Below, piece after piece: positions 4,320 to 28,483 of a DNA stretch of 64,000 nt; position 1 is the stretch's first letter, and every line of letters begins with the position of its first letter. The stretch is from positions 1 to 64,000 of the IMG/VR virus record IMGVR_UViG_3300023215_000707. One strand, 5' to 3'. Below the pieces are notes generated by a model, which worked only from the letters and a program-made list of their open reading frames with translations, did not search any database and was not told the DNA's origin. The position numbers and the translations under genes are program-made. This stretch comes from a virus.

Positions 4320-4429
4320 TGCATCACCTTCTTTTCGGAATTAAAAATATCTAAAATTCTACCTGCGGTAGTATTACCAATCCCATCCGATTTACATAAC
4401 TCATTAGAATTACTATCTCCTATTTCCAT
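4316..4429 (-). CDS. Helix-hairpin-helix fragment, +1 frame of the ERCC4 nuclease
   Basis: 37 codons from an internal ATG; the open frame extends back to base 4456. It reads ELCKSDGIGNTTAGRILDIF, a clear HhH motif (L..x.GIG..xA..Il..F). Upstream in the same frame, LLKEHGSLMEI matches the hairpin preceding it in Hef/XPF-type (HhH)2 domains (LLEHFGSVEKV). This is therefore the C-terminal half of the neighbouring ERCC4 nuclease, displaced by +1. It may be made by ribosomal frameshift, as a separate subunit, or the gene may be broken. It has only a weak ribosome-binding site of its own. Confidence 0.6.
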   Translation of the reverse strand: MEIGDSNSNELCKSDGIGNTTAGRILDIFNSEKKVMQ

Positions 4430-4973: not shown

Positions 4974-4975
4974 GA

Positions 4976-5065
4976 TTATCTCCCCCTAAGTTTTTGAATT
5001 ATAGAATCCCATGTTATTAGTAATACCATAAACCATACCAATAATACTTCTTTTACTTTTCCCAT
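4976..5065 (-). CDS. Membrane microprotein (29 aa)
   Basis: The ATG overlaps the primase stop codon (TAATG). Residues 6-19 (EVLLVWFMVLLITW) form one hydrophobic helix with basic flanks. Its 3' end carries the ribosome-binding site of the ERCC4 gene. It could be mainly a translational coupler, but a membrane helix between replication genes is also seen at 6141 and 30144. Confidence 0.4.
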   Translation of the reverse strand: MGKVKEVLLVWFMVLLITWDSIIQKLRGR

Positions 5066-6144: not shown

Positions 6145-6296
6145 TTCAATAACACCATACCTACTACAATAATAGTCATAATATTAACAATATTAACCAT
6201 CATAATTATTCTATTACTGAACTTAAGAGTATCGTGTATCTTTTCCATAATTTCGGTCAATTTATTTTGACCCTCTAACAATTCATCAAAGACCAT
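6141..6296 (-). CDS. Small membrane-anchored protein (51 aa)
   Basis: I chose the ATG at 6296 (MVFDELLEGQ) because the longer frame from 6347 overlaps the upstream gene by 62 bases. An amphipathic N-terminal half is followed by a C-terminal hydrophobic helix (about residues 28-50). It overlaps the primase start by 4 bases. No family recognised; it might tether a replication protein to the membrane. Confidence 0.45.
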   Translation of the reverse strand: MVFDELLEGQNKLTEIMEKIHDTLKFSNRIIMMVNIVNIMTIIVVGMVLLK

Positions 6297-6792
6297 CAAA
6301 AATCCTCTCCACTTTAACATCTCCGGCTCTTGTTGAAACTTTACCATCTTTTTCTTCTAAAGAGGGTTCTTCCAATACATCTTTACCTTTAATTAAATCT
6401 TTCATTATATCTTTACCTACTGCCATTTCTAGTTTAGAACCTTGTAGAGAGTCTTTGGGTTTTTCTATTAAAGATGCAGGTTTTTCTGCTGGAATTGAAA
6501 GTGTGGGCTTTCCCGCAAAATTAACTGTTGCTGATTCAAACTTCTTTTTAAAGACCACCATTACTTCTTCTTCTAATTGTTGCATAACTAAAATGTTGAA
6601 TAATGAACCAAACGAATGTTCCCAAGTTTCTAATTCAGGAATTTGTTTTTCCCATATCATTTCTAGTTGAGATTCTAAATCTAATTCATGGTAAAGTTCT
6701 TCTGCAACTTGTTTAGAAACATCAGGCAATTTCAACAATTCATGGAATTTCCAATCTTTACTATCTATTTTTTCTTGTATTTTATCTTTCAT
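6286..6792 (-). CDS. Unknown early protein, 168 aa
   Basis: The helical N-terminal half (residues 1-85, with an EEEVMVVFKKKFE segment) is followed by a low-complexity Lys/Glu/Pro-rich linker and a short charged tail. No enzymatic motif seen. It lies between the Cas4/RecB-like nuclease and the primase; the layout suggests a replication accessory or scaffold protein. Confidence 0.5.
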   Translation of the reverse strand: MKDKIQEKIDSKDWKFHELLKLPDVSKQVAEELYHELDLESQLEMIWEKQIPELETWEHSFGSLFNILVMQQLEEEVMVVFKKKFESATVNFAGKPTLSIPAEKPASLIEKPKDSLQGSKLEMAVGKDIMKDLIKGKDVLEEPSLEEKDGKVSTRAGDVKVERIFDGL

Positions 6793-7673: not shown

Positions 7674-7840
7674 TTTAATCCCTCTTTCCAATTATTTATC
7701 ATTTCATCTAACCCTACCATAAAATCAACTATATGATTTTGAATTTTTTCTATTTCTTTTAATTTCAAAGTCAAAGAATTAATTTTAGATTCTAAATTTT
7801 GTAAATGTCTTTTATCAGTTGGTGCTTTTTTCCAAAACAT
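7670..7840 (-). CDS. Small coiled-coil protein (56 aa)
   Basis: The ATG overlaps the stop of PolB-C (TAATG) and its stop overlaps the start of the nuclease gene (ATGA). Residues 14-45 have a heptad pattern of Leu/Ile (LESKINSLTLKLKEIEKI). It is likely a real coupled gene; role unknown. Confidence 0.5.
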   Translation of the reverse strand: MFWKKAPTDKRHLQNLESKINSLTLKLKEIEKIQNHIVDFMVGLDEMINNWKEGLK

Positions 7841-8760
7841 TAAAACCACTCCTTCAATAATTTTTGTTTATCGTCAATTTTACACTTAGATATATCCCAA
7901 TTCATTGCATCAAAGACTGGCTTTACCTTTTTTATTACTTCGGATTCTGCTAAGAAAACCCAATCTGGATTAAAATTATCTAATTCGGGCAGAAGCCTTA
8001 CACCAATATACGATGCTGGTTTTCTTTTCCCGTTCCAATCTGTATATGTTTCACCATTTAATTTACACTTTAAGTAATAAAATGAATCTGTTAATTTATT
8101 GTCGGGATTAATATGTTCATCATAATAAAATTGACCAGCACTACCCCCACCAAAAACAGGGTTTTTACCTTCTAAGGTTTTACATTTATTCAATCTAGCA
8201 TTGCACCTTTCATTTTCACATGATGAATCTGGAATAAGATTGAGAAGCCTTTTCAAGTAATCCACTTTATATTTTTTCCGACACCTAGAACATTGTAATT
8301 CTAATCTATGGGCTTGTATTCTTTTTCTTTTAACTAAATCTTCTTTAGATATTTCTTTATCAAGAACAGCATTATACTTTGATTTAACATAAGAAACTAT
8401 TTCTTCTTCTGTTTTTTGATTAATCCACATTTCTATTGTTTTCTTCTGAACTTCTTTACCAGTATTAGATTCTGCAATTCTTTTCAATGAAAAACCAGTG
8501 CAGACAAATTCTGGTTCACTAAGATAGATACCATCTTTCCAAATGATATATCCTGCATTTTTATTTTTAGTAGTGCCTACCCCTAATACTGAATAGTATT
8601 TTTCAAATTCTAATTCTATTGGGTGAATATCTAAACCCATAACATTTGGAAAAACATTTTCTTGAATGTGGTTGTTTAATATATCTTTAATTTCTTCGGC
8701 CTTTTCAACAGAAGGTATGGGAATATAAAGAGAATCGGTATGAGCATAAACTATTTTCAT
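7840..8760 (-). CDS. polB: Family B DNA polymerase, C-terminal part (palm motif C and thumb)
   Basis: 306 residues. It starts almost at motif C: KIVYAHTDSLY, where the usual Y-x-D-T-D-S has His in place of the first Asp; the second, essential Asp is present. ELEFEKYYSVLGVGTTKNKNAGY follows, equivalent to the K-K-x-Y motif that contacts primer DNA. The thumb contains a four-cysteine insertion (CSRC about residue 157, then two Cys about 24 residues later). It ends KQKLLKEWF, a good PIP box (Q-x-x-L-x-x-W-F) for PCNA. The N-terminal half is the next gene but one upstream. GGTGA five bases before the ATG is a clear ribosome-binding site, so the piece is translated on its own. Confidence 0.85.
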   Translation of the reverse strand: MKIVYAHTDSLYIPIPSVEKAEEIKDILNNHIQENVFPNVMGLDIHPIELEFEKYYSVLGVGTTKNKNAGYIIWKDGIYLSEPEFVCTGFSLKRIAESNTGKEVQKKTIEMWINQKTEEEIVSYVKSKYNAVLDKEISKEDLVKRKRIQAHRLELQCSRCRKKYKVDYLKRLLNLIPDSSCENERCNARLNKCKTLEGKNPVFGGGSAGQFYYDEHINPDNKLTDSFYYLKCKLNGETYTDWNGKRKPASYIGVRLLPELDNFNPDWVFLAESEVIKKVKPVFDAMNWDISKCKIDDKQKLLKEWF

Positions 8761-8764
8761 TAAA

Positions 8765-8896
8765 TCACCTATTCAAATATTTACTCAAAGGGCTAAATGA
8801 AATACTATTAACTCTATTAATGGTTAAATCAATTGAAGATTCATCCAATTGATTTAGAAGTGAGGCGCAATCTCCTTCATGGATAGTATTAATCAT
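8765..8896 (-). CDS. 43-codon frame between the two PolB halves, methyltransferase-like start
   Basis: The ATG overlaps the stop of PolB-N (ATGA), and the stop lies 4 bases before PolB-C. Residues 1-26 read INTIHEGDCASLLNQL then SSIDLTI, the lead-in of DNA amino-methyltransferases (..GDC...L..L...SIDL.., as in M.HinfI), but the catalytic D/N-P-P-Y expected next is missing. It may be the remnant of an inserted gene or a small bridging peptide. The match is short, so I rate the product weakly. Confidence 0.45.
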   Translation of the reverse strand: MINTIHEGDCASLLNQLDESSIDLTINRVNSISFSPLSKYLNR

Positions 8897-10548
8897 TCTA
8901 ATTCCCTCGCCTTGAATGCTACTTCTCTAATGGCTTCTCTAGCACTAGCAGTAATACTAGCCGCCAAATCAATATCATACCAACCAAATCCTCGTAAAGC
9001 GGTTGCGCCATAGATTGATGCTAATAATCTTTTTACAGCCATTTGCATTGAGTTCCATTTAACATATTCTTTTCTATTATCATTTTGTAATGCTTCTAAC
9101 ATTTTAGATTTATATTCTGCTCTTAATGGTTTTAGTGTAAGAATCATATTAGGTAGTAATCCTAATTTATCAGTCTTATAATATTTCCAATCATATTCGG
9201 TAACTTTAGAAAAATCTCTAGGCGTTTTAATGTTCACTTTCAGTTCAGTTTCACTTTCACTTTTAGTTTCAAATGAGATGTTCCGAGCCAAAATGCAACT
9301 AGGATAAAGAGATGCAAAATCTAACGCCGCTACACCAAGCCACAACCCATTAGTTTTTTCATCTAATGGATTGTAAATCATTGCGCCATCATATTTTATT
9401 TTATCTCCATATTCTCCAGTTGGTGCTTTCCACCATGCGTTTCTCATGAAATATACGCTACCCATATGTGATACAAAAAAACAATCTTCAAAAGGGGCTT
9501 TAACTAATTTTTGAATTGCTAAAATTCCTTCACTAAGCCCCATCTCTTCATCTATCTTATAGAGTAATTCAGCATCTTGAATACAATATTCTAAATAATT
9601 TGTAGTATCTTCAAGCCACGCCTTCATAAAAAATTCATTTCTATCTGTAAATTTAGATTCTTTCTTTTTACCTTCACCAACAGATACACTAGCGCAATAT
9701 TCTAATGATTGACTAGGTAAAGTTCCCCGCTGAGAATCCATCCATTGACGTTCAAAAGCCAAATCAAGATTAAGACAAATTCTTCCCTTGATAGGTTGGT
9801 CGATAGACCCATAACTAATATCACCTAATATCTTATGACCTACATTTTTAACTTCATTATATGGAGATAACTTTCTAGGATTTAGACCATTAGCATGAAG
9901 CCTTTCTATTAGTTTTGGAATATCGGATTGAAGCCCCCACCAAGCAATTAACATATCGGGGTCTTGTTCTTGCATATCCTTTACAAATGCTTCAAGCATT
10001 TCTTTTTCGGAATCAAATGCACCTGTGGAATTTAGAGCAATTATTTCATCTTCAGGAAACCAAGTGTATAACTTACTTTCATTAGTATAATTATCATAAA
10101 CAGCAATACAAGTAATAGCCTCTTCATGTTCATGTCCTTCGGGCAACCATTCCATATCCCAATACCATTTACGCAATTCATATTCGGGAACTTTCTTTAA
10201 TTCATCTACACAATAACGACGCAGAATAGGCACATCTCCTTCCCATGTTGCGGCAAATTTCTTCTTTGCTGAATACATATCCTTTGGGTTGGAATAAAAA
10301 ACCTTAGTTAGAGATTGCCCTTTTAGATTAATCCATTTCCCTTTTTGATATTTGAAAAATCCAGTTTGTTTAACTGGTTTATGTCCTATCATTTTATGAC
10401 TAGTTGCATAGGTATCTATTTGTGAATCTATTGCTCTAATAAAAAAATAGGGCTGAAAATTATTTATTATTTTTTCTTTACGTTCCCTATGCTCATCTCT
10501 CCATCTAATCTTAACAGACTTATCAGCATCAGTCCAACAAATAATCAT
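8893..10548 (-). CDS. polB: Family B DNA polymerase, N-terminal part (exonuclease, palm motifs A and B)
   Basis: 551 residues from the ATG at 10548 (MIICWTDADK), which follows the PCNA stop by one base; the longer frame from 10578 overlaps PCNA. Exo I is YWDMEW, Exo II region WWGLQSDIP, Exo III YCIQDAELLY. Motif A is ALDFASLYPSC, with the metal-binding Asp. Motif B is KRLLASIYGATAL. The protein stops after KARELE, between motif B and motif C; the rest of the active site is in the gene at 7840-8760. Split PolB enzymes are known in some archaea, where the parts associate. PCNA lies directly upstream. Confidence 0.9.
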   Translation of the reverse strand: MIICWTDADKSVKIRWRDEHRERKEKIINNFQPYFFIRAIDSQIDTYATSHKMIGHKPVKQTGFFKYQKGKWINLKGQSLTKVFYSNPKDMYSAKKKFAATWEGDVPILRRYCVDELKKVPEYELRKWYWDMEWLPEGHEHEEAITCIAVYDNYTNESKLYTWFPEDEIIALNSTGAFDSEKEMLEAFVKDMQEQDPDMLIAWWGLQSDIPKLIERLHANGLNPRKLSPYNEVKNVGHKILGDISYGSIDQPIKGRICLNLDLAFERQWMDSQRGTLPSQSLEYCASVSVGEGKKKESKFTDRNEFFMKAWLEDTTNYLEYCIQDAELLYKIDEEMGLSEGILAIQKLVKAPFEDCFFVSHMGSVYFMRNAWWKAPTGEYGDKIKYDGAMIYNPLDEKTNGLWLGVAALDFASLYPSCILARNISFETKSESETELKVNIKTPRDFSKVTEYDWKYYKTDKLGLLPNMILTLKPLRAEYKSKMLEALQNDNRKEYVKWNSMQMAVKRLLASIYGATALRGFGWYDIDLAASITASAREAIREVAFKARELE

Positions 10549-10549
10549 A

Positions 10550-11323
10550 TTAATTCCCCACTCTTGGCGCACGAACAATTGCGCTATTTTCTGTAATCAT
10601 TAAAAGGGGCTGGTCGTCGCCTATGAATATCCTAATTAATTCATTTTTATTAAAGAATTTATGCAAAGGACTACTGAATAATACTGTTGATGATTCACCA
10701 CTTGTATTAAGATATTCTACTTCTTCACGATATGAAGAGATTTGTTTATCCGAAGATATTATGAATTTAGCATTTGTTATTTCATCTTCTTCAATATAAT
10801 TCATTTGATAAATACCATGATTTACTATTTCACAACCATCAATTGCATTATACAATGCATCCTTTGTTAATTCAATTACACACCTTAGTTGGATTTCACC
10901 AAATGAATGAATATTTAGTTCTTCATCAAAGGAAAACGGCCAATAGTTTAAGAACCGTCTTAATCTCCCGTCATATGGATGACGAATTACTATTGGCATT
11001 GTCGCTCGTTTGCCTGAACTATCCATTACCACAGTATCTCCCACTGTAACTGTAATTTCGTCATCCATTTTAGTTAGATACTTTTTAATCGTATCTATTT
11101 CTAATATGAAATATCCCTCATCTTCTGTTTCCACTGGAATTGATTTGATAGCCACCGTAGATTCATCGGCATTAACTAACAATAACTCATTATTAGATAA
11201 TTGAAAATAAACATAATTTCCTAAAGACTTTGAAGATAGTCCTGTTGTAGTATTCCATTTGCCGTATAATTGAACATTTTTCAAAGCATCAATAATATCC
11301 TTCTTGTTCACTTGTAATTTCAT
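10550..11323 (-). CDS. pcn: PCNA-type sliding clamp
   Basis: 257 residues, the usual PCNA length. The N-terminal half contains ADESTVAIKSIPVE and strands like those around the first PCNA domain. The C-terminus has FSSPLHKFFNKNELIRIFIGDDQPLLM then IVRAPRV, matching the final PCNA strands (usually ..DxPl...y.iAPr.). It would tether PolB, the clamp loader and other PIP-box proteins to DNA. The gene starts 118 bases after the Sak4 gene, one of the few gaps in the module, and is followed one base later by PolB-N. Confidence 0.75.
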   Translation of the reverse strand: MKLQVNKKDIIDALKNVQLYGKWNTTTGLSSKSLGNYVYFQLSNNELLLVNADESTVAIKSIPVETEDEGYFILEIDTIKKYLTKMDDEITVTVGDTVVMDSSGKRATMPIVIRHPYDGRLRRFLNYWPFSFDEELNIHSFGEIQLRCVIELTKDALYNAIDGCEIVNHGIYQMNYIEEDEITNAKFIISSDKQISSYREEVEYLNTSGESSTVLFSSPLHKFFNKNELIRIFIGDDQPLLMITENSAIVRAPRVGN

Positions 11324-16667: not shown

Positions 16668-18203
16668 TCATAAGTTTGATTTCACTTCATTTAGTGAAGT
16701 AATATCACTCACGGGTTTATCTTCACGGATTCTCAACATTCGGGGAAACCTCAACCCTAAGTTCCCTTCTTTATCAGTAGTCACTAAATCGCAAGTAACC
16801 TCAAGAATAATTCTCGGAAGGAGATTATAAGTTCCATTACTTACACTTTTTATAATTTTTTTAGATTGATTCGTAAGATATAATAAATCTGTATCGGAAA
16901 ATCCACTTCCAACTGAACCCACCGAAATAAAATTCTCCTTCTCTTTTACAGCAATATCATATGATGAAAACACCGAGGCTCGTCGCCCCTCTCCATATCT
17001 AGCCCCAACAACCACCACATCAAATTCAAAGCGTGGTGGCTTGTATTTAGCCCATGCTACCGACCTTTTACCACTATGATAGGTTGCCCTCAAATCCTTC
17101 ACTATAATACCTTCATAGCCATCGTTAATGGCTTCATTGTAAAATACGTCATTATTTGCTACCTCTATACTTCTAATTGCTTGATTGGAGAATTTATTAA
17201 TTGTCCTCAATCTTTCTATTAATGGTAAGTCCATTAGGTTTTCAACATCATACATTAGACAATCGAAGACAGCAACACTACAAGGACATTTTTCAACGGC
17301 CTCTTGTATATTTTTTGAATGTATGCGAGTTTGCATTGTCTTGAATAGTTTTGGTCGCCCATCTAAATCAATAGGATAAATCTCCGTATCTATGATAAAA
17401 CATGAGGGTAAATTTTTCCAATTTAAGACAATTTCTACTATATCGGGGAATTTTTCTGTAACTTGAACACCCTTTCGATTGAAGATGAAACATCTACCTT
17501 TTCCCCAGTGTATTTGATACCTAGCCCCATCATACTTATATTCTGCAATATATTCTTCAGGCCATTTTTCTTTAGGAATTGCTTTCGCTAACATTGGAGC
17601 AATATAGCGGCCGACCACTAAATCATTTGATGGTTCTATTCCCCTTTCATAATAAGTTAGCAATTCTGGAAGAGAATGTAATTGATTATGTTTTTTAACT
17701 TCTGTTTCTTTTTTATTATAAATCTTTGCGAGAAGTTTTCTTACTGTGCCTACGTTAATACCATTTCTAGGAGTTCTAAGCCAATATCTCAAAAACCATT
17801 TCTGTTCTAAGGCAGACATTTCTAAAAAATATTGTTGAAAACAGCGATAGGATTCTCCATCACTTTTACTACAATCCATTTCAAGTAATGATAATATCCC
17901 TTTCATACCAAAAGAAGAATCTTCCCCATTCCCTTCATTAAAGAAATAAACAGCATCACCTATATCTCCATGAGTATAGATTTCCATTTCTATTTCTTCT
18001 TCAAATATTTGCATTGCATTAATTATCCATGTGGTTGCCTTTTTAGTCTTTAAATTATTTACATTCAAATTCAAAGAAAGAATTTTAATAAAGGATTCTT
18101 TATCTTCTATCAGTTCCCAATCTTTAGCAATTGCGGATATTTTTTTAGTTGGGGTAGTATGTTCTATTGCTTGGTTTAATCTAGCAAATTCTATCCAATT
18201 CAT
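16668..18203 (-). CDS. lig: ATP-dependent DNA ligase (replication module)
   Basis: About 511 residues from the ATG at 18203 (MNWIEFARLNQ); a GTG at 18212 overlaps the upstream gene. The N-terminal DNA-binding domain includes KWFLRYWLRTPRNGINVGTV. The adenylation domain has AEYKYDGARYQIH (catalytic Lys in K-Y-D-G-x-R), FIIDTEIYPID, VFDCLMYDVENL and GIIVKDLRATYHSGKR, then WAKYKP (motif V). The OB domain follows (VVVGARYGEGRR ... GSVGSGFSD). This is the archaeal/eukaryotic ligase layout at slightly less than the usual 560 residues. It would seal nicks in replication and recombination. A second ligase-like gene is at 60765. Confidence 0.92.
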   Translation of the reverse strand: MNWIEFARLNQAIEHTTPTKKISAIAKDWELIEDKESFIKILSLNLNVNNLKTKKATTWIINAMQIFEEEIEMEIYTHGDIGDAVYFFNEGNGEDSSFGMKGILSLLEMDCSKSDGESYRCFQQYFLEMSALEQKWFLRYWLRTPRNGINVGTVRKLLAKIYNKKETEVKKHNQLHSLPELLTYYERGIEPSNDLVVGRYIAPMLAKAIPKEKWPEEYIAEYKYDGARYQIHWGKGRCFIFNRKGVQVTEKFPDIVEIVLNWKNLPSCFIIDTEIYPIDLDGRPKLFKTMQTRIHSKNIQEAVEKCPCSVAVFDCLMYDVENLMDLPLIERLRTINKFSNQAIRSIEVANNDVFYNEAINDGYEGIIVKDLRATYHSGKRSVAWAKYKPPRFEFDVVVVGARYGEGRRASVFSSYDIAVKEKENFISVGSVGSGFSDTDLLYLTNQSKKIIKSVSNGTYNLLPRIILEVTCDLVTTDKEGNLGLRFPRMLRIREDKPVSDITSLNEVKSNL

Positions 18204-18208
18204 AATTC

Positions 18209-18580
18209 TCACTCTTCTTCATCTTTTGATTTGAACATACCCATCATTAGCGCATTGGCTAATCCAATAGCGTGTAGGGTTTTATTATCTCCTGCTTTTC
18301 CAGCAAGACCCATTACTAAAGTATTGAAGGCTTGCATTAACGGAAGAGTAGCATTCCATAAATGTTGAGCCTCTTCTCCATACATATATTCTCCTTTATC
18401 TAAAGTAGACATATGCAATAAATGGAAAAACATAAACCCATGCCTATCCATATCTGTAAATAGACTTTCTAATTCATTCTCAAAAGCATCTGCCATCTCT
18501 TTTGGTAGGTTTTTACTCATCCATTCGTGATGGGCTTTAACCCAAGTATTGAAATATTCTTCATTGTATATCCATATCAT
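18209..18580 (-). CDS. Unknown early protein, 123 aa
   Basis: A helical protein with many aromatic residues and His (NTWVKAHHEWMSKNLP; HGFMFFHLLHM). No known motif. The acidic C-terminus (KSKDEEE) overlaps the ligase ribosome-binding region. It overlaps the upstream gene by 20 bases. Confidence 0.5.
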   Translation of the reverse strand: MIWIYNEEYFNTWVKAHHEWMSKNLPKEMADAFENELESLFTDMDRHGFMFFHLLHMSTLDKGEYMYGEEAQHLWNATLPLMQAFNTLVMGLAGKAGDNKTLHAIGLANALMMGMFKSKDEEE

Positions 18581-19821: not shown

Positions 19822-19928
19822 TCTTCTTCACCTCTTTTATCAACAGTTAATCCTCTTAAACATTTCAAACATTTACGAAATCCTTTCCACGCTGGTTCAA
19901 AACATTCTTTGACTGTGCAAATCCTCAT
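19818..19928 (-). CDS. Zinc-knuckle microprotein (36 aa)
   Basis: Cys4, Cys9, Cys20 and Cys23 (CTVKEC and CLKC) could bind one zinc. The stop overlaps the start of the next gene (ATGA). Its first 32 bases overlap the end of GroEL in another frame. Confidence 0.45.
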   Translation of the reverse strand: MRICTVKECFEPAWKGFRKCLKCLRGLTVDKRGEEE

Positions 19929-21420
19929 CTTTCTCACCTACTAATACTTCGGAAGTCAATGCTAAACAAGTAACTGAAACGGCACTATTCAAAGAAGAAA
20001 TAGTCACCTTCACAGGGTCAATAATTCCCTTTTTAACCAAATCACATTTTTTACCTGTTTTAGCATCTCTTTGAAGATATGGTATTGAAATATCCCATCC
20101 ACCATTCATTAAAATTCTTTTGTAGGGTTCATCTAAACAAGAAGAAAATGAGTTTTCACTATTTTGTCTTGCATTTAAAAGAGCATATCCACCACCACAA
20201 ACAACCCCCAATTCCATTGCGGCTCTAGTAGCATTCAAAGCATCATCAACCCTTTCTTTAGTATCTCTCATTTCTATTTCCGAACCTGCACCAATATTCA
20301 ACACAGCAATACCACCGAGTAATTTAGCAATTCTTTTCTTCATATTATCTCTAACATAGTCATTAGAAGCATCTTCAAGGTGGCTTTCTATCATAGAGGC
20401 TCTTGTCTTGATAGCATCCGAATCGCCGTTACCATCTACAATTAAGGTTTTAGTTTCCCCAACAACCACCTTTACTGCTTGACCTAAATCTTCAAGTTCA
20501 GTTTCTTCAGGTTTAATTTCAGTTTGAACATCTAAAAATTTCCCATTTGTTAGTATTGCTATATCCTCTAATAAAGAGTCGGACACATAACCGTAGTCTG
20601 GAGATTCTATTGCACAACATTGCACTGTTCCATTCATAACATTTACAATTAGATTACTAATAGCGTGTTGCTCAAGTGTGCGTGAAATAAGTAGTAGTGG
20701 TCGTTTTGTTTCAGCCACCTTTTCCAAGATTGGAATTAATTCTTGAAACCTAAGAATATTAAAATTAGAAATAAGAATGTATGGATTCTCCATTTCAGTA
20801 ATGTTCTTTTCTTTATCTAAGGCTAAATGATGGCTTCTATACCCTCTTTCAATTTCCATACCTTGAGCAATTTCAATATAGGTATTCATATCTTTAGATT
20901 CCGATACAGTAATAACTCCATTTTTACCTACCTTTTCCATTGCTTCTGCGATTAGTTCTCCGATATATTCATCATTATTTGCGGCTATTGTAGCCACGTT
21001 CTTAATTTGTGTAAAATTCTCTATTGGTTTAGCATTAAGCATCAAATTACTAATAACTTCATCTCTTAAATTACTCAATTCATTAGAAACTTCAACAGGA
21101 TTACGGCCACCATTAATTAATTCCATTCCACTTTCACAGAAACTTTGGGCTAATACACAAGCAGTTGTTGTTCCATCTCCCGCAGTGTTTTGGGCTTGAG
21201 TTGCTACTTCAATAAGAAGTTTAGCCCCCATATCAATAAATTCATCTTCATGGAAAATTGATTTAGCAACAGTCACACCATCATTAACAATAATAGGTTT
21301 CCCTTTTTCTTTTAATATAACTGTTCTAGACATTGGGCCAAGGGTTGGTTTAACTGCATTTGCAACTAAATTAATTCCTTCTAGAATTTTTTCTCTCGCT
21401 TCATCACCTGTTACTATCAT
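19897..21420 (-). CDS. groEL: Group I chaperonin GroEL (bacterial type)
   Basis: 507 residues with GroEL signatures in order: VKPTLGPMSRTVILKE, VNDGVTVAKSI, NTAGDGTTTACVLAQ (nucleotide-binding, catalytic Asp), apical domain, ERVDDALNATRAAMELGVVCGGGYALL and a conserved equatorial C-terminal region. It is a group I chaperonin, not a thermosome. Compared with about 548 residues in E. coli it lacks the Gly-Met tail and ends in a charged stretch. The matching GroES gene is 64 bases upstream. It probably folds capsid or other viral proteins, as some phage-encoded chaperonins do. Confidence 0.93.
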   Translation of the reverse strand: MIVTGDEAREKILEGINLVANAVKPTLGPMSRTVILKEKGKPIIVNDGVTVAKSIFHEDEFIDMGAKLLIEVATQAQNTAGDGTTTACVLAQSFCESGMELINGGRNPVEVSNELSNLRDEVISNLMLNAKPIENFTQIKNVATIAANNDEYIGELIAEAMEKVGKNGVITVSESKDMNTYIEIAQGMEIERGYRSHHLALDKEKNITEMENPYILISNFNILRFQELIPILEKVAETKRPLLLISRTLEQHAISNLIVNVMNGTVQCCAIESPDYGYVSDSLLEDIAILTNGKFLDVQTEIKPEETELEDLGQAVKVVVGETKTLIVDGNGDSDAIKTRASMIESHLEDASNDYVRDNMKKRIAKLLGGIAVLNIGAGSEIEMRDTKERVDDALNATRAAMELGVVCGGGYALLNARQNSENSFSSCLDEPYKRILMNGGWDISIPYLQRDAKTGKKCDLVKKGIIDPVKVTISSLNSAVSVTCLALTSEVLVGEKDEDLHSQRMF

Positions 21421-21484
21421 TGGTTTTTCCCCCTTATTTTAAATCTAATTAAAGTCCATAAATTTGAAATAAATTTTCGCATAG

Positions 21485-21718
21485 TCATTTAGTATCACTT
21501 ACCATACACAATATACTATTCATGTGAATAACAAAATATTCACCAACAGGTTGTTTCTTATTAACTTCATAAAAGATAATATCTCCAACATCTATATTTT
21601 CAACCTTATCACCATAAGAAATTATTACGGCTTTATTTTGTTCACTTACAATTAGTGAACCATGTTGGCTTTTTACAGCCTCACAGACTAACATTTCTCC
21701 ATATGCTTTTAATTTCAT
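21485..21718 (-). CDS. groES: GroES-like co-chaperonin
   Basis: 77 residues. It begins KLKAYGEMLVCE, has a shortened mobile loop at HGSLIVSEQNK, and continues KAVIISYGDKVENIDVGDIIFYEV, matching the GroES core (..V...G...... vk.GD.V.f). It lacks about 20 residues relative to cellular GroES, mainly around the loop and roof. It is directly upstream of groEL in the same operon, as in bacteria. T4 gp31 is a precedent for a viral co-chaperonin with an altered loop. Confidence 0.8.
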   Translation of the reverse strand: MKLKAYGEMLVCEAVKSQHGSLIVSEQNKAVIISYGDKVENIDVGDIIFYEVNKKQPVGEYFVIHMNSILCMVSDTK

Positions 21719-22289: not shown

Positions 22290-22481
22290 TCATTCTTCAT
22301 CACTATCCAATTTATTATATAATGTATCTAAAGAAAGTTGAAGATTATTTATACATAAGAATAATGCTGTATGGTCTTTAGGGTTATCCGAAGTAATACC
22401 TATTTTTTCAAGATACATTTTCATGGCTTTAGGGGTATGCCTTAAATGCCAAACATACTCTCTAATTTCTTCTTTATTCAT
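22290..22481 (-). CDS. Unknown small early protein, 63 aa
   Basis: A mostly helical protein (EEIREYVWHLRHTPKAMKMY). No motif. It is coupled by a 4-base overlap to the JAMM protease gene upstream, so it may belong to the same functional group. Confidence 0.45.
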   Translation of the reverse strand: MNKEEIREYVWHLRHTPKAMKMYLEKIGITSDNPKDHTALFLCINNLQLSLDTLYNKLDSDEE

Positions 22482-22972
22482 TCTCCATCACCATCAAAAG
22501 TAAAATTATCCCAAATCTTTTCACTATATTTAAAGAACTTCATTTTTTGACTATTTTTCATCCACAACATATGTTCATTATTTCCGAGAACAATTGCAGT
22601 TAGCATTTGTATTTTCCATGTATTAATAGTTCTTCTATCAGTTTCGGAAAAATACGCTTTACCAAAAGGATGAGTGTGAATCCAACATTTGACCGGCAGT
22701 TTCATTCCCTCTACACTTTCTTCATTAATAAACGACACAAAAGAACCACTACCAACACTAATAAATAAATCATTTTTACTATCAATTACAACTTGAATTT
22801 CGCTAGGATGAGAAAACGCCGTCAGGCTCATTTCCCAAATTGATTTCAAAAAATCATTTCTATATGGTTTAAATAAAGACTCAATTACAGAAGAATCAAA
22901 TTGAGTTCTTATATTCTGCTCCCAATTACCATTTAGAATAGTCTTCGTATTACCTGCCCGTATAATCATCAT
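22478..22972 (-). CDS. JAMM/MPN metalloprotease (deubiquitinase-like)
   Basis: 164 residues. The JAMM zinc motif is complete: His99-Thr-His101-Pro102, six residues, Ser109, two residues, Asp112 (WIHTHPFGKAYFSETD). JAMM enzymes cleave ubiquitin-like proteins or their isopeptide bonds; in viruses they also occur in tail assembly proteins with peptidoglycan-type domains, which are absent here. An E1-like gene lies 206 bases upstream, and a ubiquitin-like protein ending GGL is at 28283. The likely role is trimming the terminal Leu to expose GG, or removing the modifier. Confidence 0.8.
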   Translation of the reverse strand: MMIIRAGNTKTILNGNWEQNIRTQFDSSVIESLFKPYRNDFLKSIWEMSLTAFSHPSEIQVVIDSKNDLFISVGSGSFVSFINEESVEGMKLPVKCWIHTHPFGKAYFSETDRRTINTWKIQMLTAIVLGNNEHMLWMKNSQKMKFFKYSEKIWDNFTFDGDGE

Positions 22973-23181
22973 GCTCCCCCCATAAAACCAACAACCAAAT
23001 CTTGCTTATTGATAAATTCATGATAGGTTTGATGACCGGCAATGAACCCCCCTGCATCTCTTTTGAGTCCTTTGAATGATTCCCCACAAGCAGGGCAGGT
23101 GACTTTAACTACTTCCGCATCAAAATATGTTCCAATAGATAGTTTAATTTTTTGAATAATAGTTCCAACTTCTTCATTCAT
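22969..23181 (-). CDS. C2H2 zinc-finger small protein (70 aa)
   Basis: CPACGESFKG followed 11 residues later by GHQTYH gives a Cys2-His2 finger (C-x2-C ... H-x3-H). It lies between the JAMM and E1-like genes with 4-base overlaps on both sides, so it may be an adaptor or substrate-recognition subunit of that system. Alternatively it is an unrelated DNA-binding protein. Confidence 0.6.
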   Translation of the reverse strand: MNEEVGTIIQKIKLSIGTYFDAEVVKVTCPACGESFKGLKRDAGGFIAGHQTYHEFINKQDLVVGFMGGA

Positions 23182-23741
23182 ATATTCACCACCTTGTAAT
23201 CCGCAACATCATCATTATCTACAAACCATCGCTGAATCCATTGGGCGGCCATTCCAGCAATTGCAACATGAGTAAAATGTATGCCTTCTTTTTCACCTTT
23301 CCACTCAGTTGTTTGGCAGGAAAAACTACCACTTGGACCTGTTAAAACGGTATCAAACATATCTTTAGGGGTTTTATAACTAATAAATGCCCCATTTCTC
23401 CCCTGCGCCCTCAAATCTAACCACTGCGTTAATGACCTATAAAGTAGTCTTCGCACATCTAAATTATCTGCACAACATATCACCAAATCATAACCCTTGA
23501 TTTGTTTTTCAGTAAGAACTAAAAATGGTTCTGCTTTAACCACAGACTTGTAACGGTCTTGCATTGCAACAACCTTCTTTAGTTCTATTTCATCTATTTC
23601 AAAATTTTGATAAGATATATTTTTCTTTTCTATAATGTCGGGGTCATTTACTGTAATCTTATACAATCCTGTTTTATTCAAAAGAGGAATAAGAAAACTA
23701 CCTATTCCCCCTGCTCCTATTATTAATATTTTTCTTTTCAT
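23178..23741 (-). CDS. ThiF/E1-like adenylating enzyme
   Basis: 187 residues. Rossmann ATP loop at the start (ILIIGAGGIGSF, residues 5-16). VNDPDIIEKKNISYQNF (residues 31-47) is the D-x-D...N-x-x-x-Q region of E1/ThiF/MoeB enzymes, with Tyr where Arg is usual. YDLVICCADNLDVRRLL matches the ..D.vi...DN...R..l motif. Cysteines at CQTTEW could supply the thioester. These enzymes adenylate the C-terminal Gly of ubiquitin-like proteins. It is shorter than cellular ThiF (about 240) and has no C-terminal zinc pairs. Its operon holds a JAMM protease and, about 5 kb upstream, a GG-ending ubiquitin-like protein. Confidence 0.8.
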   Translation of the reverse strand: MKRKILIIGAGGIGSFLIPLLNKTGLYKITVNDPDIIEKKNISYQNFEIDEIELKKVVAMQDRYKSVVKAEPFLVLTEKQIKGYDLVICCADNLDVRRLLYRSLTQWLDLRAQGRNGAFISYKTPKDMFDTVLTGPSGSFSCQTTEWKGEKEGIHFTHVAIAGMAAQWIQRWFVDNDDVADYKVVNI

Positions 23742-23950
23742 TCATCATCACCCTGTTCTTCAAAATTATGCCATTTTCTTAACCATTCTTTAGTTTGCTC
23801 AATAGTCATAGTTAATCCTATCTCCCAATTTTCATGCTTTCTAAATTCAGTTAGATACCATTCGGGATTTTTAGTTTGCATATCTTCTATTATCTCCATA
23901 TACACAATCGCATGTCTTAACATGTCTGCTTTCCATATATTCATTTTCAT
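23738..23950 (-). CDS. Unknown small early protein, 70 aa
   Basis: Helical, Trp- and Met-rich (NIWKADMLRHAIVYMEII; TMTIEQTKEWLRKWH). ATG overlaps couple it to both neighbours; the ATG at 23944 is an alternative start. No family recognised. Confidence 0.45.
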   Translation of the reverse strand: MKMNIWKADMLRHAIVYMEIIEDMQTKNPEWYLTEFRKHENWEIGLTMTIEQTKEWLRKWHNFEEQGDDE

Positions 23951-24312
23951 ATTTTCATCTCCAAATAATCTTCTAGAGTTTTTACATCCTTTTTGACTTC
24001 ATCTATTTTAAATTCAAAGGGTGAATCGGTTAGTGATTCAGTTGGTGTTACTACTGCTATTGCTACAATTGGTTTATTCAACATTGAAAATAGTTTATTT
24101 ATTATTTTCTTTCTTGCTGAATCAAATTTTAATTTCCCACCTTCTTTCCAAGCAGTATAATTAAATTCTTCATCAATATATCCTTCAATATACATTATTA
24201 AATTAAGTAGAATATTATATTCTGCATCTTTTATTTTAGTAGGTGGATTAAATTCTTCATAATTTTCCATTAGTGACTCAAACAATTCTTGTTCTTTTAC
24301 ATCTAATTTCAT
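23947..24312 (-). CDS. Unknown early protein, 121 aa
   Basis: Helical N-terminal half, then a hydrophobic strand PIVAIAVVTP and a Lys/Glu-rich tail. No motif recognised. Its reading frame overlaps neighbours by 4 bases on both sides. Confidence 0.45.
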   Translation of the reverse strand: MKLDVKEQELFESLMENYEEFNPPTKIKDAEYNILLNLIMYIEGYIDEEFNYTAWKEGGKLKFDSARKKIINKLFSMLNKPIVAIAVVTPTESLTDSPFEFKIDEVKKDVKTLEDYLEMKI

Positions 24313-24527
24313 TCTTCTTCCTCAAGATTTAAACGATACTTTTCAATATCAAATTTTACATATTCTTGTTGAGTTATAGTTAAACGATTAAAATGCATGG
24401 TGGCTTTTTCATCCATAATTTCCCAAAAATTTAACATCTCTTGTGTGTTTTCAAAACGATAAATTGTTTCCCTTTTTATTTGCCCAGTTGGATGAACCAT
24501 TGTTCCCATTTTTATTTCTTTTTCCAT
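24309..24527 (-). CDS. Unknown small early protein, 72 aa
   Basis: A charged small protein (MEKEIKMGTMVHPTGQIKRE start, acidic EEEE end). No recognised domain. Two bases separate it from the upstream gene. Confidence 0.4.
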   Translation of the reverse strand: MEKEIKMGTMVHPTGQIKRETIYRFENTQEMLNFWEIMDEKATMHFNRLTITQQEYVKFDIEKYRLNLEEEE

Positions 24528-24529
24528 AG

Positions 24530-24772
24530 TTATGCCTCTTTTACTTCATAATCTATATGGTTTTTAGGAATACGATGTTTACGCCTATCAATCATATTAC
24601 GAATTAATTGTGCGGCAGAATTGATACCATTATCAAATCTCTTTTCAGCGACTTCATCCCCTGTTGGGACCATATCTGCTTTTATTCTTTCAATTACCAT
24701 TCCTATTTCTTTTGATTGTAATATATTTTTTAATATTTCATATTCAACATGAACTGTTGTTTTTGCTCTCAT
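24530..24772 (-). CDS. Unknown small early protein, 80 aa
   Basis: Begins MRAKTTVHVEYEILKNILQS; contains a basic motif near the end (MIDRRKHRIPKNH). Possibly nucleic-acid binding. It overlaps the end of the zinc-finger gene by 29 bases. Confidence 0.4.
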   Translation of the reverse strand: MRAKTTVHVEYEILKNILQSKEIGMVIERIKADMVPTGDEVAEKRFDNGINSAAQLIRNMIDRRKHRIPKNHIDYEVKEA

Positions 24773-25403
24773 TTATATCTCTCCTAAATTCTTTTAATAT
24801 AGTTTCACTAACCTTTAATTCACATAAAATCTTATAACGATGTTGGGGAGAAAACGTGTTTCCTTTTCCATCTCGGTCTTCTCTAAGAGAAATAACTCTA
24901 TCATAGAGGATTCTACACCTCTCCTTACAAAACTTAGCATTTAATTGCCTTTCTGGTGTTATTCTTTCACCACAAGTTATACATTCATGGTGTTCTCTTA
25001 ACATTTCTTTACACATAGGACTACAATATGGTTTATGAATTTCTGTATATATAGAATTGGATTTATGACCCCAAAATTTCTCATCACAACTAGAGCATTT
25101 TATTATACTTTTTTTATTTTCTGGTCTTATTGCAACACAATCATCACAAGACACCTGATTAGTTCCTTTATGTGGTTTAAATTCATCACAAAAACCACAA
25201 ATTCTTTCTGGAAAATTAGATTTTTCTTTTATTATTTGGCCTTTATGATTTAGAAAAGTTATGGTTTCATATTTTCTTTTAGCCATAGTTCTTTTTAATG
25301 AATTTTGGCGAGTTTTATATCTACATTGAGAGCAAATATTTCTTGCGTGAAAAGTTCCACCCTGAAAAAAACGCTTCTCACAACGACTACAATCTCTCCA
25401 CAT
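24744..25403 (-). CDS. Multi-zinc-ribbon protein, 219 aa
   Basis: About nine CxxC-type pairs can be seen in order: CSRC, CSQC, CGFC, CDDC, CSSC, CSPMC, CITCG and CKERC, forming about four zinc ribbons or treble clefs with basic linkers. Patterns like CITCG...F...RC resemble HNH-type zinc domains, but no His-Asn-His catalytic core is evident. It is probably a nucleic-acid or protein-binding regulator. It starts exactly at the TFB stop codon, so a role in transcription is plausible. Confidence 0.6.
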   Translation of the reverse strand: MWRDCSRCEKRFFQGGTFHARNICSQCRYKTRQNSLKRTMAKRKYETITFLNHKGQIIKEKSNFPERICGFCDEFKPHKGTNQVSCDDCVAIRPENKKSIIKCSSCDEKFWGHKSNSIYTEIHKPYCSPMCKEMLREHHECITCGERITPERQLNAKFCKERCRILYDRVISLREDRDGKGNTFSPQHRYKILCELKVSETILKEFRRDINESKNNSSC

Positions 25404-26242
25404 TATCTAACCCCTGCAATAATATCACCGATAGTTAGACCATAGGTATTTTTAATATTCAATAATTTTAATATGTTATTGTAATGCACCCTTATTGTAA
25501 CCCCTGATACACTAAGAACTTCTGCAATCATTTTTTGAGTAATGTTCTTTTCTAATTGGGTTGTTTCTGTGAAATATATCAGGCCAGCCAAGTAAGGAGA
25601 AGTAGGGTGTTTAGATTCTAATGAATTAATATATTCATGAATATTAATACATTCATTGATGAATTTTCTTGATTTTCCTAACCGCAAACAAAATTTCTCT
25701 AATAAAGAACCCACATTAACATTAGAAAATACATATGAAAGACCCAATTCTCTAGCAAATCCTCTAGAAAGTTTACTAATTTTCTTAGCCGGTAATTCTA
25801 ACACTTTAGACATTTCTTGCAAGGTATAAGAATAATCATACTGCTTTAAAACAATATATCCTATTGCGGCGGCTCTAATTTCAAGAGGCATTTTAGTCGA
25901 GAAAATACCTTTCTTTATTAGAAGAACATAATATCTTTTCATTTCTTCAATAGCAGGTGCGCTCATATTGAACTCACTGGCAACCATATTACAATATCTA
26001 AATCCTCTATTAATTGTCCGTTCATTAGAGGGAATGGAATGAATACGGGCAAGTCTTCTCAATTTATATGCCCCCTTTTCTTTAGAAACAAATCCGCCCA
26101 GTGTTTTATCATTATGTCTAACAAGTTCACCATCTTTAAAGGGGTTTTCTTCCATAATCAAACCATGAACTAAACCACAGTTAGGGCATTCTAGTGCTTC
26201 ATTTTGTTTCACAATATCTATATTACATTCATCACATCTCAT
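25403..26242 (-). CDS. tfb: Transcription initiation factor B (TFB)
   Basis: 279 residues with the TFB layout. The zinc ribbon has Cys3, Cys6, Cys19 and Cys22 (CDEC, CPNC). A B-finger/linker region (GGFVSKEKGAYKLRRL) is followed by two cyclin repeats; the second ends MIAEVLSVSGVTIRVHYNNIL, close to the TFIIB signature (iA.v.gvt..TiR..Y..). TFB bridges the TATA-binding protein/BRE and RNA polymerase. A viral copy could redirect the host polymerase to promoters such as those in the 32.5-37.5 kb island. It is slightly shorter than cellular TFBs (about 300). Confidence 0.88.
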   Translation of the reverse strand: MRCDECNIDIVKQNEALECPNCGLVHGLIMEENPFKDGELVRHNDKTLGGFVSKEKGAYKLRRLARIHSIPSNERTINRGFRYCNMVASEFNMSAPAIEEMKRYYVLLIKKGIFSTKMPLEIRAAAIGYIVLKQYDYSYTLQEMSKVLELPAKKISKLSRGFARELGLSYVFSNVNVGSLLEKFCLRLGKSRKFINECINIHEYINSLESKHPTSPYLAGLIYFTETTQLEKNITQKMIAEVLSVSGVTIRVHYNNILKLLNIKNTYGLTIGDIIAGVR

Positions 26243-26282
26243 TGCGTCACCCCTTTGGGATAACCGTTTTACTTCTCCATCT

Positions 26283-27506
26283 CTATTGAAACAGCGAAAT
26301 TCTTTGGTTAGTTTGGTTTAGGGTATGCCTACTATTTAACCTTCCCTTAATAGTTGATACCCTTTCAATTAAAAGATTGTCGTTTAACAGCCCTAATGCT
26401 CTAGTTACGAATTGGTCGCCAGTAGGTGAATTATTATCAAGATTATCTACACAAATAGGCCCAATCCAATTTCCGTCAGTTAAGTCCCTGCTATGCTCCC
26501 AAAGAAAGGTAGATACGTTTTGTTGGCCTTGAGATTTCAAGCCTCTATCCGTAAGTTTCCAATCGGCAAGTTTACCATTAATATACATGATAGTGGGAGT
26601 TTGTGAAACATCTAGTAATTTATCTGGTGAACCCCAATTAATCTTAATTCTATTGGGGTATCTATTAGATAGGTGTATCATTAAATCTCTAGCCCTTTCT
26701 TTCACTACTTTTTCTGTTCTATTTTGGCTTAAGAAACAAAGCATTAACTGTTCTTCACTTTCAGTAAGGTTTCTTTTCATTAATTTGAACCATAGTTCCG
26801 AAGGACTTAGATTCGACCACTTACTTTGTTTTCTTTTCTTAATATAAGAATTAAGATAAGAGTTGAATTGTTTTATTGTTAATTCACCCCAAACCCCATC
26901 GGAGATTTCTAATGCTACATTGTTATCAGAAATAAGATTAGCGTTAAGTCTGCATTCAATCTTCTTTTGATAACTACCTCTAATATCATCTTCTATATCA
27001 ATGAAGAAATAATATGGCGCACGATTTTCTAATGCATAAGATACCATTTCTGGTAATTGAATATGTTTTATTAAAAATCTCTCCAATTCAAAAGAATCTT
27101 CTGTAAAACAAGACTTGTATATAGTTCTAGCAAGGGAAGAAATTAATACTTCTTTATTAGCCATCATACCATTAATATAATACCGAGTCTTTGCCTTATT
27201 AAAAAGAATTACAAATCCTGAATCACCAATATAAATTGTGTGGCTAAATTCCACAGGTGCATTTGCGGCTTCTTCTATTGGCCTATAATAACCCCTACGA
27301 TATGTTTTATTGTAAAGATTTTTACGACTCATTTTCAATTCACCCATTAACCAAAGTTTGATAGATTCTATAAGTGGATTAATTGCACTTCTATATCTAG
27401 TGGGGTATAAAGTCACTGTATGATAATGACCCTCTTCACCAAATCGTATCATAGTTGAATCATATTGTCCTGAATCATCGGGTCTTCTAATTAATAATTC
27501 GGGCAT
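26283..27506 (-). CDS. Unknown early protein, 407 aa
   Basis: The largest unassigned early protein. It has mixed alpha-beta composition with many aromatic and Arg residues (KNLYNKTYRRGYYRP), a basic region KSYIKKRKQSKWS-like in the middle, and the segment LFNKAKTRYYINGMMANKEVLISSLARTI. No P-loop, nuclease or zinc motif seen. It lies between TFB and small zinc-finger genes. Confidence 0.5.
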   Translation of the reverse strand: MPELLIRRPDDSGQYDSTMIRFGEEGHYHTVTLYPTRYRSAINPLIESIKLWLMGELKMSRKNLYNKTYRRGYYRPIEEAANAPVEFSHTIYIGDSGFVILFNKAKTRYYINGMMANKEVLISSLARTIYKSCFTEDSFELERFLIKHIQLPEMVSYALENRAPYYFFIDIEDDIRGSYQKKIECRLNANLISDNNVALEISDGVWGELTIKQFNSYLNSYIKKRKQSKWSNLSPSELWFKLMKRNLTESEEQLMLCFLSQNRTEKVVKERARDLMIHLSNRYPNRIKINWGSPDKLLDVSQTPTIMYINGKLADWKLTDRGLKSQGQQNVSTFLWEHSRDLTDGNWIGPICVDNLDNNSPTGDQFVTRALGLLNDNLLIERVSTIKGRLNSRHTLNQTNQRISLFQ

Positions 27507-27656
27507 TTATCTCACTTCACTTTTGTATGCTCTAATACAAGAATCATGTAATTCTTGTTGTATTTCGGTAATATAGGTTAATTGTTTACCACAAAGCCTA
27601 CATCTAGTTGCAACCGGTCCTCTTAATCCTTTAGTATATTGGGGGTTTTTAGACAT
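27507..27656 (-). CDS. Zinc-finger microprotein (49 aa)
   Basis: CRLCG at residue 17 and HDSC about 22 residues later could bind zinc. The stop codon is immediately followed by the start of the 407-residue gene (TAAATG). The start overlaps the previous gene by 8 bases. Confidence 0.5.
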   Translation of the reverse strand: MSKNPQYTKGLRGPVATRCRLCGKQLTYITEIQQELHDSCIRAYKSEVR

Positions 27657-27948
27657 GGTTATTCATCTTCCAATTCTTTTCTCTTTTCGTATAAGCAATC
27701 ATATCTATATATGATTCATGTTTATATTCTATCCATTCTGTAATAAATTTTGGACTTTCTAAACCTTCACGAACCAAAATATTTCTAATTTGTTGGTTTA
27801 CCAAGTTCTGTTTAGTCTCATCTTTCAAGTTTAAGTTCTTAATCGAATTAATATAATCAACCAAAAACTGATAATCTTCATTAGACATGGAACTTTCCCA
27901 TGTTAATATACAATCATAAAATTCATGGATATTCATAAACACTGGCAC
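27649..27948 (-). CDS. Unknown early protein, 99 aa
   Basis: Helical (LVDYINSIKNLNLKDETKQN; IRNILVREGLESPKF). No motif. The start touches the stop of the zinc protein upstream. Confidence 0.45.
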   Translation of the reverse strand: MPVFMNIHEFYDCILTWESSMSNEDYQFLVDYINSIKNLNLKDETKQNLVNQQIRNILVREGLESPKFITEWIEYKHESYIDMIAYTKREKNWKMNNHV

Positions 27949-28184
27949 TATTTTTCACCTATTAATTTATGAGATTGGCAATGTATTAAATTAGGTAATG
28001 CCCATTTTTTACATTGTTTTTTAGTGGACACACTAATACATACACATCGTTCATGTTCAAGCGGTCCTTCTATTTTACAGGGATAACAATGGGTAGGGGT
28101 ATAACCCCTTCTTTTACTCCTACGGGTCATTGGGTTTTTACACCTAATACATGTCTCAGCATGTAAAGTATGTTTAAAATTCAT
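27948..28184 (-). CDS. Two-domain zinc-binding protein (78 aa)
   Basis: First unit: CIRC ... HCYPC. Second unit: RCVCISVSTKKQCKK ... HCQSHK, close to a treble-clef pattern (RC......G..C.......C..H) found in many phage proteins. A TATA-like TAATATTCATATAG lies about 50 bases upstream in the 98-base spacer, so an internal promoter is possible. Confidence 0.55.
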   Translation of the reverse strand: MNFKHTLHAETCIRCKNPMTRRSKRRGYTPTHCYPCKIEGPLEHERCVCISVSTKKQCKKWALPNLIHCQSHKLIGEK

Positions 28185-28282
28185 ATCATATCTCCCAGTA
28201 AAAAAATTACATTCTACTGTCTATATGAATATTATGCAAGTTCGGGGAAATCCTATTACAGATACCCCATAAATGAACTTAA

Positions 28283-28483
28283 TTAAAGTCCGCCAACAAT
28301 AGCGGGAATCAAATCAACTTCAGTCACTTCATCCCAATTTAGCGATGCAATATCACTTCGATTAACCATTTCACCATCAGCAAAAACCCAGTGGGTTGCG
28401 TGTTCGTTTATATGGTCCATTATTTCGCTAGTTGCAATCGACATTTCAGTATGTCCTGTTTCGTTTAGTATTCTCAACTTCAT
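28283..28483 (-). CDS. Ubiquitin-like (beta-grasp) protein ending in GGL
   Basis: 66 residues. It starts with a beta strand-turn-strand (MKLRILNETGHTEMSI), has one helix (EIMDHINEH), short strands (HWVFADGEMV), and ends EVDLIPAIVGGL. The last strand plus di-glycine (Gly64-Gly65) matches ThiS/MoaD/Urm1-type and phage ubiquitin-like proteins (..v.liP.vaGG). The single residue Leu66 after GG would have to be removed before adenylation, and a JAMM protease and E1-like enzyme are in the same operon. Similar small proteins are known in actinobacterial phages. The fold call is by pattern. Confidence 0.72.
   Translation of the reverse strand: MKLRILNETGHTEMSIATSEIMDHINEHATHWVFADGEMVNRSDIASLNWDEVTEVDLIPAIVGGL

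Follow-up and report, generated by a model that had tools for sequence, protein, structure and literature searches.

A gene cluster for a probable reversible ubiquitin-like conjugation system in a magrovirus-like genome, and its homologues in Poseidoniales

A cluster of genes that probably encodes a reversible ubiquitin-like (Ubl) conjugation system, with predicted activities, was found in the viral genome record IMGVR_UViG_3300023215_000707, of which a window of 64,000 nucleotides (nt) was analysed; all gene coordinates given here refer to this whole window. The cluster lies at 22478-28483 on the minus strand. It had been described in a first-pass annotation, made from the sequence alone, as containing genes for a Ubl protein, an E1-like enzyme, a zinc-finger protein and a JAMM metalloprotease, and this four-gene observation was confirmed, all four open reading frames (ORFs) being found on the minus strand where the annotation had placed them. 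In the proposed mechanism, the Ubl would be synthesised as a precursor that extends 0-2 residues beyond Gly-Gly, and the JAMM protein would trim this tail and probably also strip the Ubl from its targets. The E1-like enzyme would adenylate the exposed glycine and may hold the Ubl as a thioester on Cys142, from which a 407-amino-acid (aa) protein with a conserved cysteine, Cys352, would most likely take it, as an E2-like carrier, to target proteins. By these steps the infecting virus would probably place new marks on host proteins or on its own. The gene content, motifs, predicted fold, synteny, gene fusions and host homology described below were all obtained by computation.

The Ubl gene (28283-28483, minus strand) encodes a 66-aa protein that ends in IPAIVGGL, as annotated, with Gly64-Gly65 encoded at 28289-28294 and Leu66 at 28286-28288. 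The basic residue nearest to Gly-Gly on its N-terminal side is Arg42, so that tryptic digestion of any conjugate would leave a long remnant, one for which the usual diGly-lysine antibody is unsuited. The AlphaFold2 model of this protein shows the topology β-β-α-β-β-(short helix)-β followed by a floppy GGL tail, and almost all of the PDB matches listed by Foldseek are ubiquitin, NEDD8, SUMO and other Ubl domains; the predicted β-grasp fold, whose absence had been set beforehand as grounds for abandoning the annotation, was thus recovered both in the topology and in the structural matches. Every one of 71 distinct viral Ubls terminates in VGG followed by 0-2 residues, with 33 different tails after VGG and six sequences without a tail. 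The residues ahead of the tail are strongly conserved and this conservation stops exactly at Gly-Gly, which, together with the variability of the tails, is the pattern expected for a trimmed precursor and fits the idea of trimming by the JAMM protein. Lysines are few in the 69 distinct viral Ubl cores (none in 22 and a single one in 42, nearly always N-terminal), so that the viral Ubl is unlikely to be built into lysine-linked chains. A tblastn search of phage records with the Ubl gave no match, two supposed relatives (L045 and L046) were rejected as spurious, and searches of Pfam, PHROGs, NCBIfam and PADLOC with the Ubl and the Cys-domain protein returned nothing significant.

Marine viral contigs yielded 26 true relatives of the Ubl and 17 of the E1-like enzyme, and an alignment-based scan of IMG/VR found 212 Ubl loci; the cluster is therefore more than a chance arrangement. 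At each of the 88 fully covered viral loci, the genes for the Ubl, the 407-aa protein, the E1-like enzyme and the JAMM protein follow one another in this order on one strand. The annotation had expected the Ubl, E1 and JAMM genes to co-occur in relatives and was to be given up if they did not; they were found together at 88 of 88 loci, with gene order and strand unchanged. Of 42 viral records, 40 have the Ubl, 39 the E1 and 40 the JAMM gene, and each gap falls where a contig ends. The first-pass annotation had also assigned the four genes to one transcription unit. Such a unit is plausible only: the E1 and zinc-finger ORFs, and likewise the zinc-finger and JAMM ORFs, overlap by 4 bases, whereas the Ubl gene, although on the same strand, lies ~4.5 kb upstream of the E1 gene and is separated from it by other genes.

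The E1-like enzyme (187 aa, ThiF fold; 23178-23741, minus strand) contains the annotated GAGGIG sequence together with ADN and matches Pfam ThiF at E = 2e-17, above the curated cut-off. Its motif set, comprising GxGGIG, D..D, Lys56 and Asp92-Asn93, recurs as invariant columns in 34 viral and 11 host E1s, and Cys142 (23316-23318), which lies in SCQ and has a putative role in transfer, is also invariant in viral and host E1s. In the E1 tree, host and viral sequences fall into separate clades, the host clade with support of 100/99; the one exception is a crAss-like phage E1, whose position inside the viral clade was dismissed as a long-branch effect. The separation of the two clades indicates that the viral set is not a recent capture, and both clades appear to be old, the viral set having evolved on its own. 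Separately, the crAss-like phage cr106_1 (L047) was seen to encode, at 4225-6657 of its own sequence, a ThiF-domain protein adjoining a predicted metalloprotease.

The JAMM metalloprotease (22478-22972, minus strand) has the complete motif that the annotation had reported, with Glu58, His99-x-His101, Ser109 and Asp112 invariant in 34 aligned viral sequences, and the zinc-site motif is also invariant in a 14-row mixed alignment of viral and host proteins. It matches Prok-JAB at E = 2e-5, scoring 24.8 bits where the cut-off is 25, and a comparison of its profile with the PDB gave weak matches to AMSH-like proteins and to Rpn11 of Caldiarchaeum, the latter at E = 0.015; armadillo structures matched by the same profile were set aside as repeat artefacts. 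The zinc-finger protein (C2H2 type, 70 aa; 22969-23181, minus strand) is encoded by an ORF with the expected sequence (CPACG...HQTYH), whereas its annotated status as a partner was only partly upheld, as its profile was detected in only 35 of the 88 full loci and the gene is thus an optional neighbour. This protein ends in MGGA, and the idea that it might itself be a GG-ended modifier was rejected because GG is lost in distant relatives.

An E2-like protein had not been recognised in the first-pass annotation, which overlooked a candidate at 26283-27506 (minus strand). This gene, found at every one of the 88 full viral loci, encodes the 407-aa protein, whose Cys domain is C-terminal (about residues 265-389). 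Its Cys352 (26451-26453) is invariant in 35 viral homologues, within the motif GP[IV]C[IV]DN...GDQ...R.L.LLND, and the Cys352 column is aligned across 54 diverse host and viral domains, one residue being masked. The AlphaFold2 model of the 407-aa protein (pLDDT 83) presents a helix, strands, the Cys and a helix in the same order as in UBC domains, and E2 and RWD structures recur among its weak Foldseek matches. The sole PDB match of one Cys-domain profile was an E2, at E = 1.3 and in the register of the catalytic Cys. The Cys domain is linked to the Ubl, E1 and JAMM genes in both virus and host, and in a viral structure library the protein matched three unnamed viral proteins with 29-67% identity. 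These features of the sequence and the model are only suggestive of an E2-like carrier.

Homologues of the cluster were also found in cellular genomes. When the E1 alignment was scanned against 84,980 species of bacteria and archaea, the best matches were mostly from Poseidoniales and marine Euryarchaeota, with some from Methanosarcinales and Methanoperedens; two top matches labelled Maricaulis (L049 and L050) were discarded as magrovirus-like contigs that had been assigned to a bacterial bin. At three loci (L056, L059 and L213), the genes for the Cys-domain protein, the Ubl, the E1 and the JAMM protein form a compact operon, and on some host contigs this operon is accompanied by cellular genes, including one for an enolase. 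The profiles of host and viral Ubls match each other at E = 4e-17, and GG is present in all aligned host Ubls. In other Poseidoniales, two or more Ubls, each ending in GG, are arranged in tandem and in frame, and fusions of the forms Ubl-Ubl-E1 (L210, L211 and L212) and E1-JAMM (L214, L215 and L219) occur. The poly-Ubl genes were read as adjoining clamp-loader subunit genes, and a single-Ubl gene as adjoining the genes for FtsZ and ribosomal L15e. Of 146 Poseidoniales genomes, 69 contain the Ubl, 69 the E1 (E < 1e-40) and 66 the Cys domain; the Ubl and E1 are shared by 64 genomes (Fisher p = 5e-29), all three genes are present in 54 and none in 70. A survey of 243 Thermoplasmatota genomes gave 28 matches, all in genomes belonging to the Poseidoniales draw. 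By sequence homology, the viral cluster and its counterparts in the Poseidoniales hosts belong to one family, within which the viral genes form a branch of their own.

Further gene arrangements were noted in these archaea. Poseidoniales proteins of ~800 aa (L204-L209) carry a conserved-Cys domain in mid-protein, and the two that were scanned match no Pfam family. At L214, L215, L217 and L218, pairs of diverged Cys-domain proteins are encoded next to the Ubl, E1 and JAMM genes on the opposite strand. In Methanosarcinales/Methanoperedens (L052 and L063), a ThiF-like E1 with 36 and 34% identity lies beside genes for 700-aa and 166-aa proteins, the latter ending in KGKGG; this arrangement is possibly another Ubl-type system.

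In the wider genome, the minus strand carries genes for a family B DNA polymerase (PolB), a DNA ligase, TFB and GroEL/GroES, and the plus strand those for a terminase and a Druskaviridae-like portal. PolB, the Druskaviridae-like portal, the opposed replication and morphogenesis modules and GroEL/ES, which only some magrovirus families have, agree with the published magrovirus profile used for comparison (PMC12999244, PMC10768690). The genome thus looks like that of a magrovirus, a virus infecting Marine Group II archaea (Poseidoniales), with no named magrovirus genome matched directly. The TFB (TFIIB-like) gene (25403-26242, minus strand; Pfam TFIIB, E = 7e-5) is situated between the Cys-domain gene and the E1 gene, as it is in nearly all related viral loci. 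This neighbour makes host transcription one possible target of viral tagging, which is speculation; a passage of PMC4895103 reports TBP as a Ubl target in Haloferax. Other features of the window include a GroEL-type chaperonin gene with a 77-aa GroES-like gene at 19897-21718 (minus strand), present here in an archaeal virus and reported for Aoguangviridae; a PolB split across two ORFs, 7840-8760 and 8893-10578 (minus strand); and two different ATP-dependent DNA ligase-like genes at 16668-18212 (minus strand) and 60765-63242 (plus strand).

Several points weigh against interpreting the cluster as a conjugation system. Confidence in the Ubl model is intermediate (pLDDT 80 and pTM 0.62, with the other four models at ~68), and the model's best Foldseek match is modest (E = 3.5e-3, TM ~0.45). 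The Cys-domain protein has no match in Pfam and shows no significant homology to E2 families by sequence, the full-length Foldseek search with the 407-aa model gave nothing significant, and the E2 match in the PDB was not reproduced by a broader Cys-domain alignment. Comparison of the domain with the bacterial Prok-E2_B and Prok-E2_D profiles gave no more than a faint resemblance to Prok-E2_D (E = 0.006, probability 6%). No E3 or link to the proteasome was found. The Fisher test for the association between Ubl and E1 in Poseidoniales treated the genomes as independent despite their shared ancestry. Finally, the individual reactions, the carrier function of the 407-aa protein and the use to which the virus puts the system are all inferred.

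The strongest competing explanation concerns the carrier step only, and the confidence placed in it overlaps with that placed in the conjugation system proposed here. The protein encoded at 26283-27506 could be a substrate, an adaptor or an unrelated neighbour, with the E1 passing the Ubl directly to targets as in the SAMP system, a possibility to which we give somewhat less than an even chance. To our knowledge, no E2 is known for SAMP conjugation in Haloferax, for which the E1 is known, and neither by sequence nor by fold does the 407-aa protein match E2s significantly; the alignment of the Cys in 54 diverse domains, the order of helix, strands, Cys and helix, the linkage of the domain to Ubl, E1 and JAMM in virus and host, the weak fold matches to E2 and RWD and the E2 matched in Cys register all argue for a carrier instead. 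The first-pass annotation had left room for a sulfur carrier. In a role of this kind, as played by ThiS, MoaD or Urm1, adenylation by the E1 would turn the Ubl into a thiocarboxylate from which a tRNA, a cofactor or a metabolite receives sulfur, and the JAMM protein would only trim. Sulfur transfer is the job of many archaeal ThiF/MoeB enzymes. Weak Pfam ThiS matches of two viral Ubls (best E = 0.019) also point to this role, as does NCBIfam ThiF (2e-13), which is among the best matches of the viral E1, all of them far under the cut-off. Sulfur carriage is nevertheless less likely, and in our estimate improbable, because none of 18 viral records contains a rhodanese domain (PF00581) and because conjugation systems are where one finds poly-Ubl precursors, fusions of the form Ubl-Ubl-E1 and a Cys-domain protein linked to them. 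No sulfur-pathway neighbour was found among the proteins scanned, although host sulfurtransferases could serve, and E1-JAB pairs without rhodanese are predicted conjugation operons in the study of Iyer et al. (PMC1779556).

The viral copies might alternatively interfere with the host Ubl system, which is possibly antiviral like bacterial Bil or CBASS type II, by acting as decoys, competitors or deconjugating enzymes. The homologous system occurs in about half of the sampled Poseidoniales genomes with a patchiness like that of defence genes, a viral JAMM could remove host marks, and viral Ubls with so few lysines, most of them near the N-terminus, would be poor chain builders. The enzyme motifs are, however, intact across strongly diverged viral relatives, the virus retains an E1 and a Cys-domain protein that a decoy would not need, the separate old E1 clades speak for independent viral evolution, and a defence-gene neighbourhood was not shown at the host loci; interference is considered less likely than tagging by the virus itself, at perhaps one chance in a few. 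A role of Ubl and JAMM in virion assembly is very improbable. The lambdoid phage proteins TAPI (Ubl-like) and TAPK (JAB plus NlpC/P60) do form a phage Ubl/JAB pair (PMC1779556), but TAPI neighbourhoods have no E1, no NlpC domain was matched in the JAMM protein described here, and the cluster is located in the minus-strand block of TFB, chaperonin and DNA polymerase genes, away from the plus-strand packaging and portal genes. A more specific proposal, that open-ocean archaeal viruses have a complete Ubl-E1-E2-JAMM system of their own, homologous to a polyubiquitin-like system of Poseidoniales, with an uncatalogued E2 family and long parallel viral and host versions, is advanced tentatively, at only just under even odds in our judgement.

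Bacterial operons of Ubl, E1, E2 and JAB genes (types 6a-6e) were predicted by Iyer, Burroughs and Aravind in 2006 (PMC1779556). The present cluster resembles them in its Ubl, rhodanese-free E1, JAB/JAMM protein and E2-like protein with a conserved Cys, as well as in the zinc-finger neighbour, tandem Ubl repeats and E1-JAB fusion. It differs in being carried by archaeal viruses and Poseidoniales, in having a TFB gene inside the cluster, in the distance of the viral Ubl gene from the E1 gene, and in that Pfam misses the Ubl and the Cys domain and barely catches the JAMM protein. The SAMP/UbaA/HvJAMM1 system of Haloferax similarly combines an archaeal Ubl ending in GG with an E1 and a JAMM protease; however, the E1 reaches 31 bits against a SAMP E1 cut-off of 450, far short of the threshold for the UbaA type, and precursor tails, tandem Ubls, fusions and a candidate E2 set the present system apart. 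The PRTRC system, which consists of a ThiF protein, a Ubl, the E2-like protein B and a JAB protein, has four kinds of part in common with the cluster. Among named models, PRTRC_ThiF fits the host E1 best (E = 2.9e-13), yet its scores of 34.7 for the virus and 49.7 for the host fall far below the cut-off of 144.75, and the faint resemblance to Prok-E2_D given above also separates the two.

In Caldiarchaeum, where the ubiquitin precursor is described in a passage of PMC6043591 as trimmed by the JAMM protein CsRpn11, the operon for ubiquitin, E1, E2, RING and Rpn11 provides a parallel for the JAMM-trimmed precursor predicted here, and the JAMM profile reaches Rpn11 as noted above; in contrast, no RING was found in the present case, the E2 candidate is outside the classic family and the Ubl sequence is not close to ubiquitin. 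The E1 also matches PADLOC E1-E2 models (E = 1e-11) and Cap2 and BubCD structures, in keeping with CBASS type II Cap2/Cap3, Bil and Bub. Unlike those antiphage systems, the genes here are in a virus, the E2 candidate is not fused to the E1 and no CD-NTase was seen. According to the passages found of the RaFAH paper (PMC8276007), ThiF/MoeB is a prevalent auxiliary gene in predicted archaeal viruses with a link to ubiquitination; this is probably the same kind of E1 gene, whereas those passages make no mention of a Ubl, a JAMM protein, a candidate E2 or a system in the host. In the literature searched, neither the Ubl, JAMM protein and candidate E2 of the virus nor the poly-Ubl system of Poseidoniales was found described, and an earlier mention in magrovirus papers is possible.

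If the interpretation as a conjugation system is correct, an abundant group of ocean viruses would equip the archaeal cells that they infect with a kit for reversible protein tagging, and many marine archaea, themselves a large group, would possess polyubiquitin-like genes together with an E1, a JAMM protein and a candidate E2. These systems would constitute a branch outside the SAMP and the Caldiarchaeum/Asgard systems, with a bearing on the origin of ubiquitin signalling, and would offer a testable case of competition between virus and host over archaeal protein tagging.

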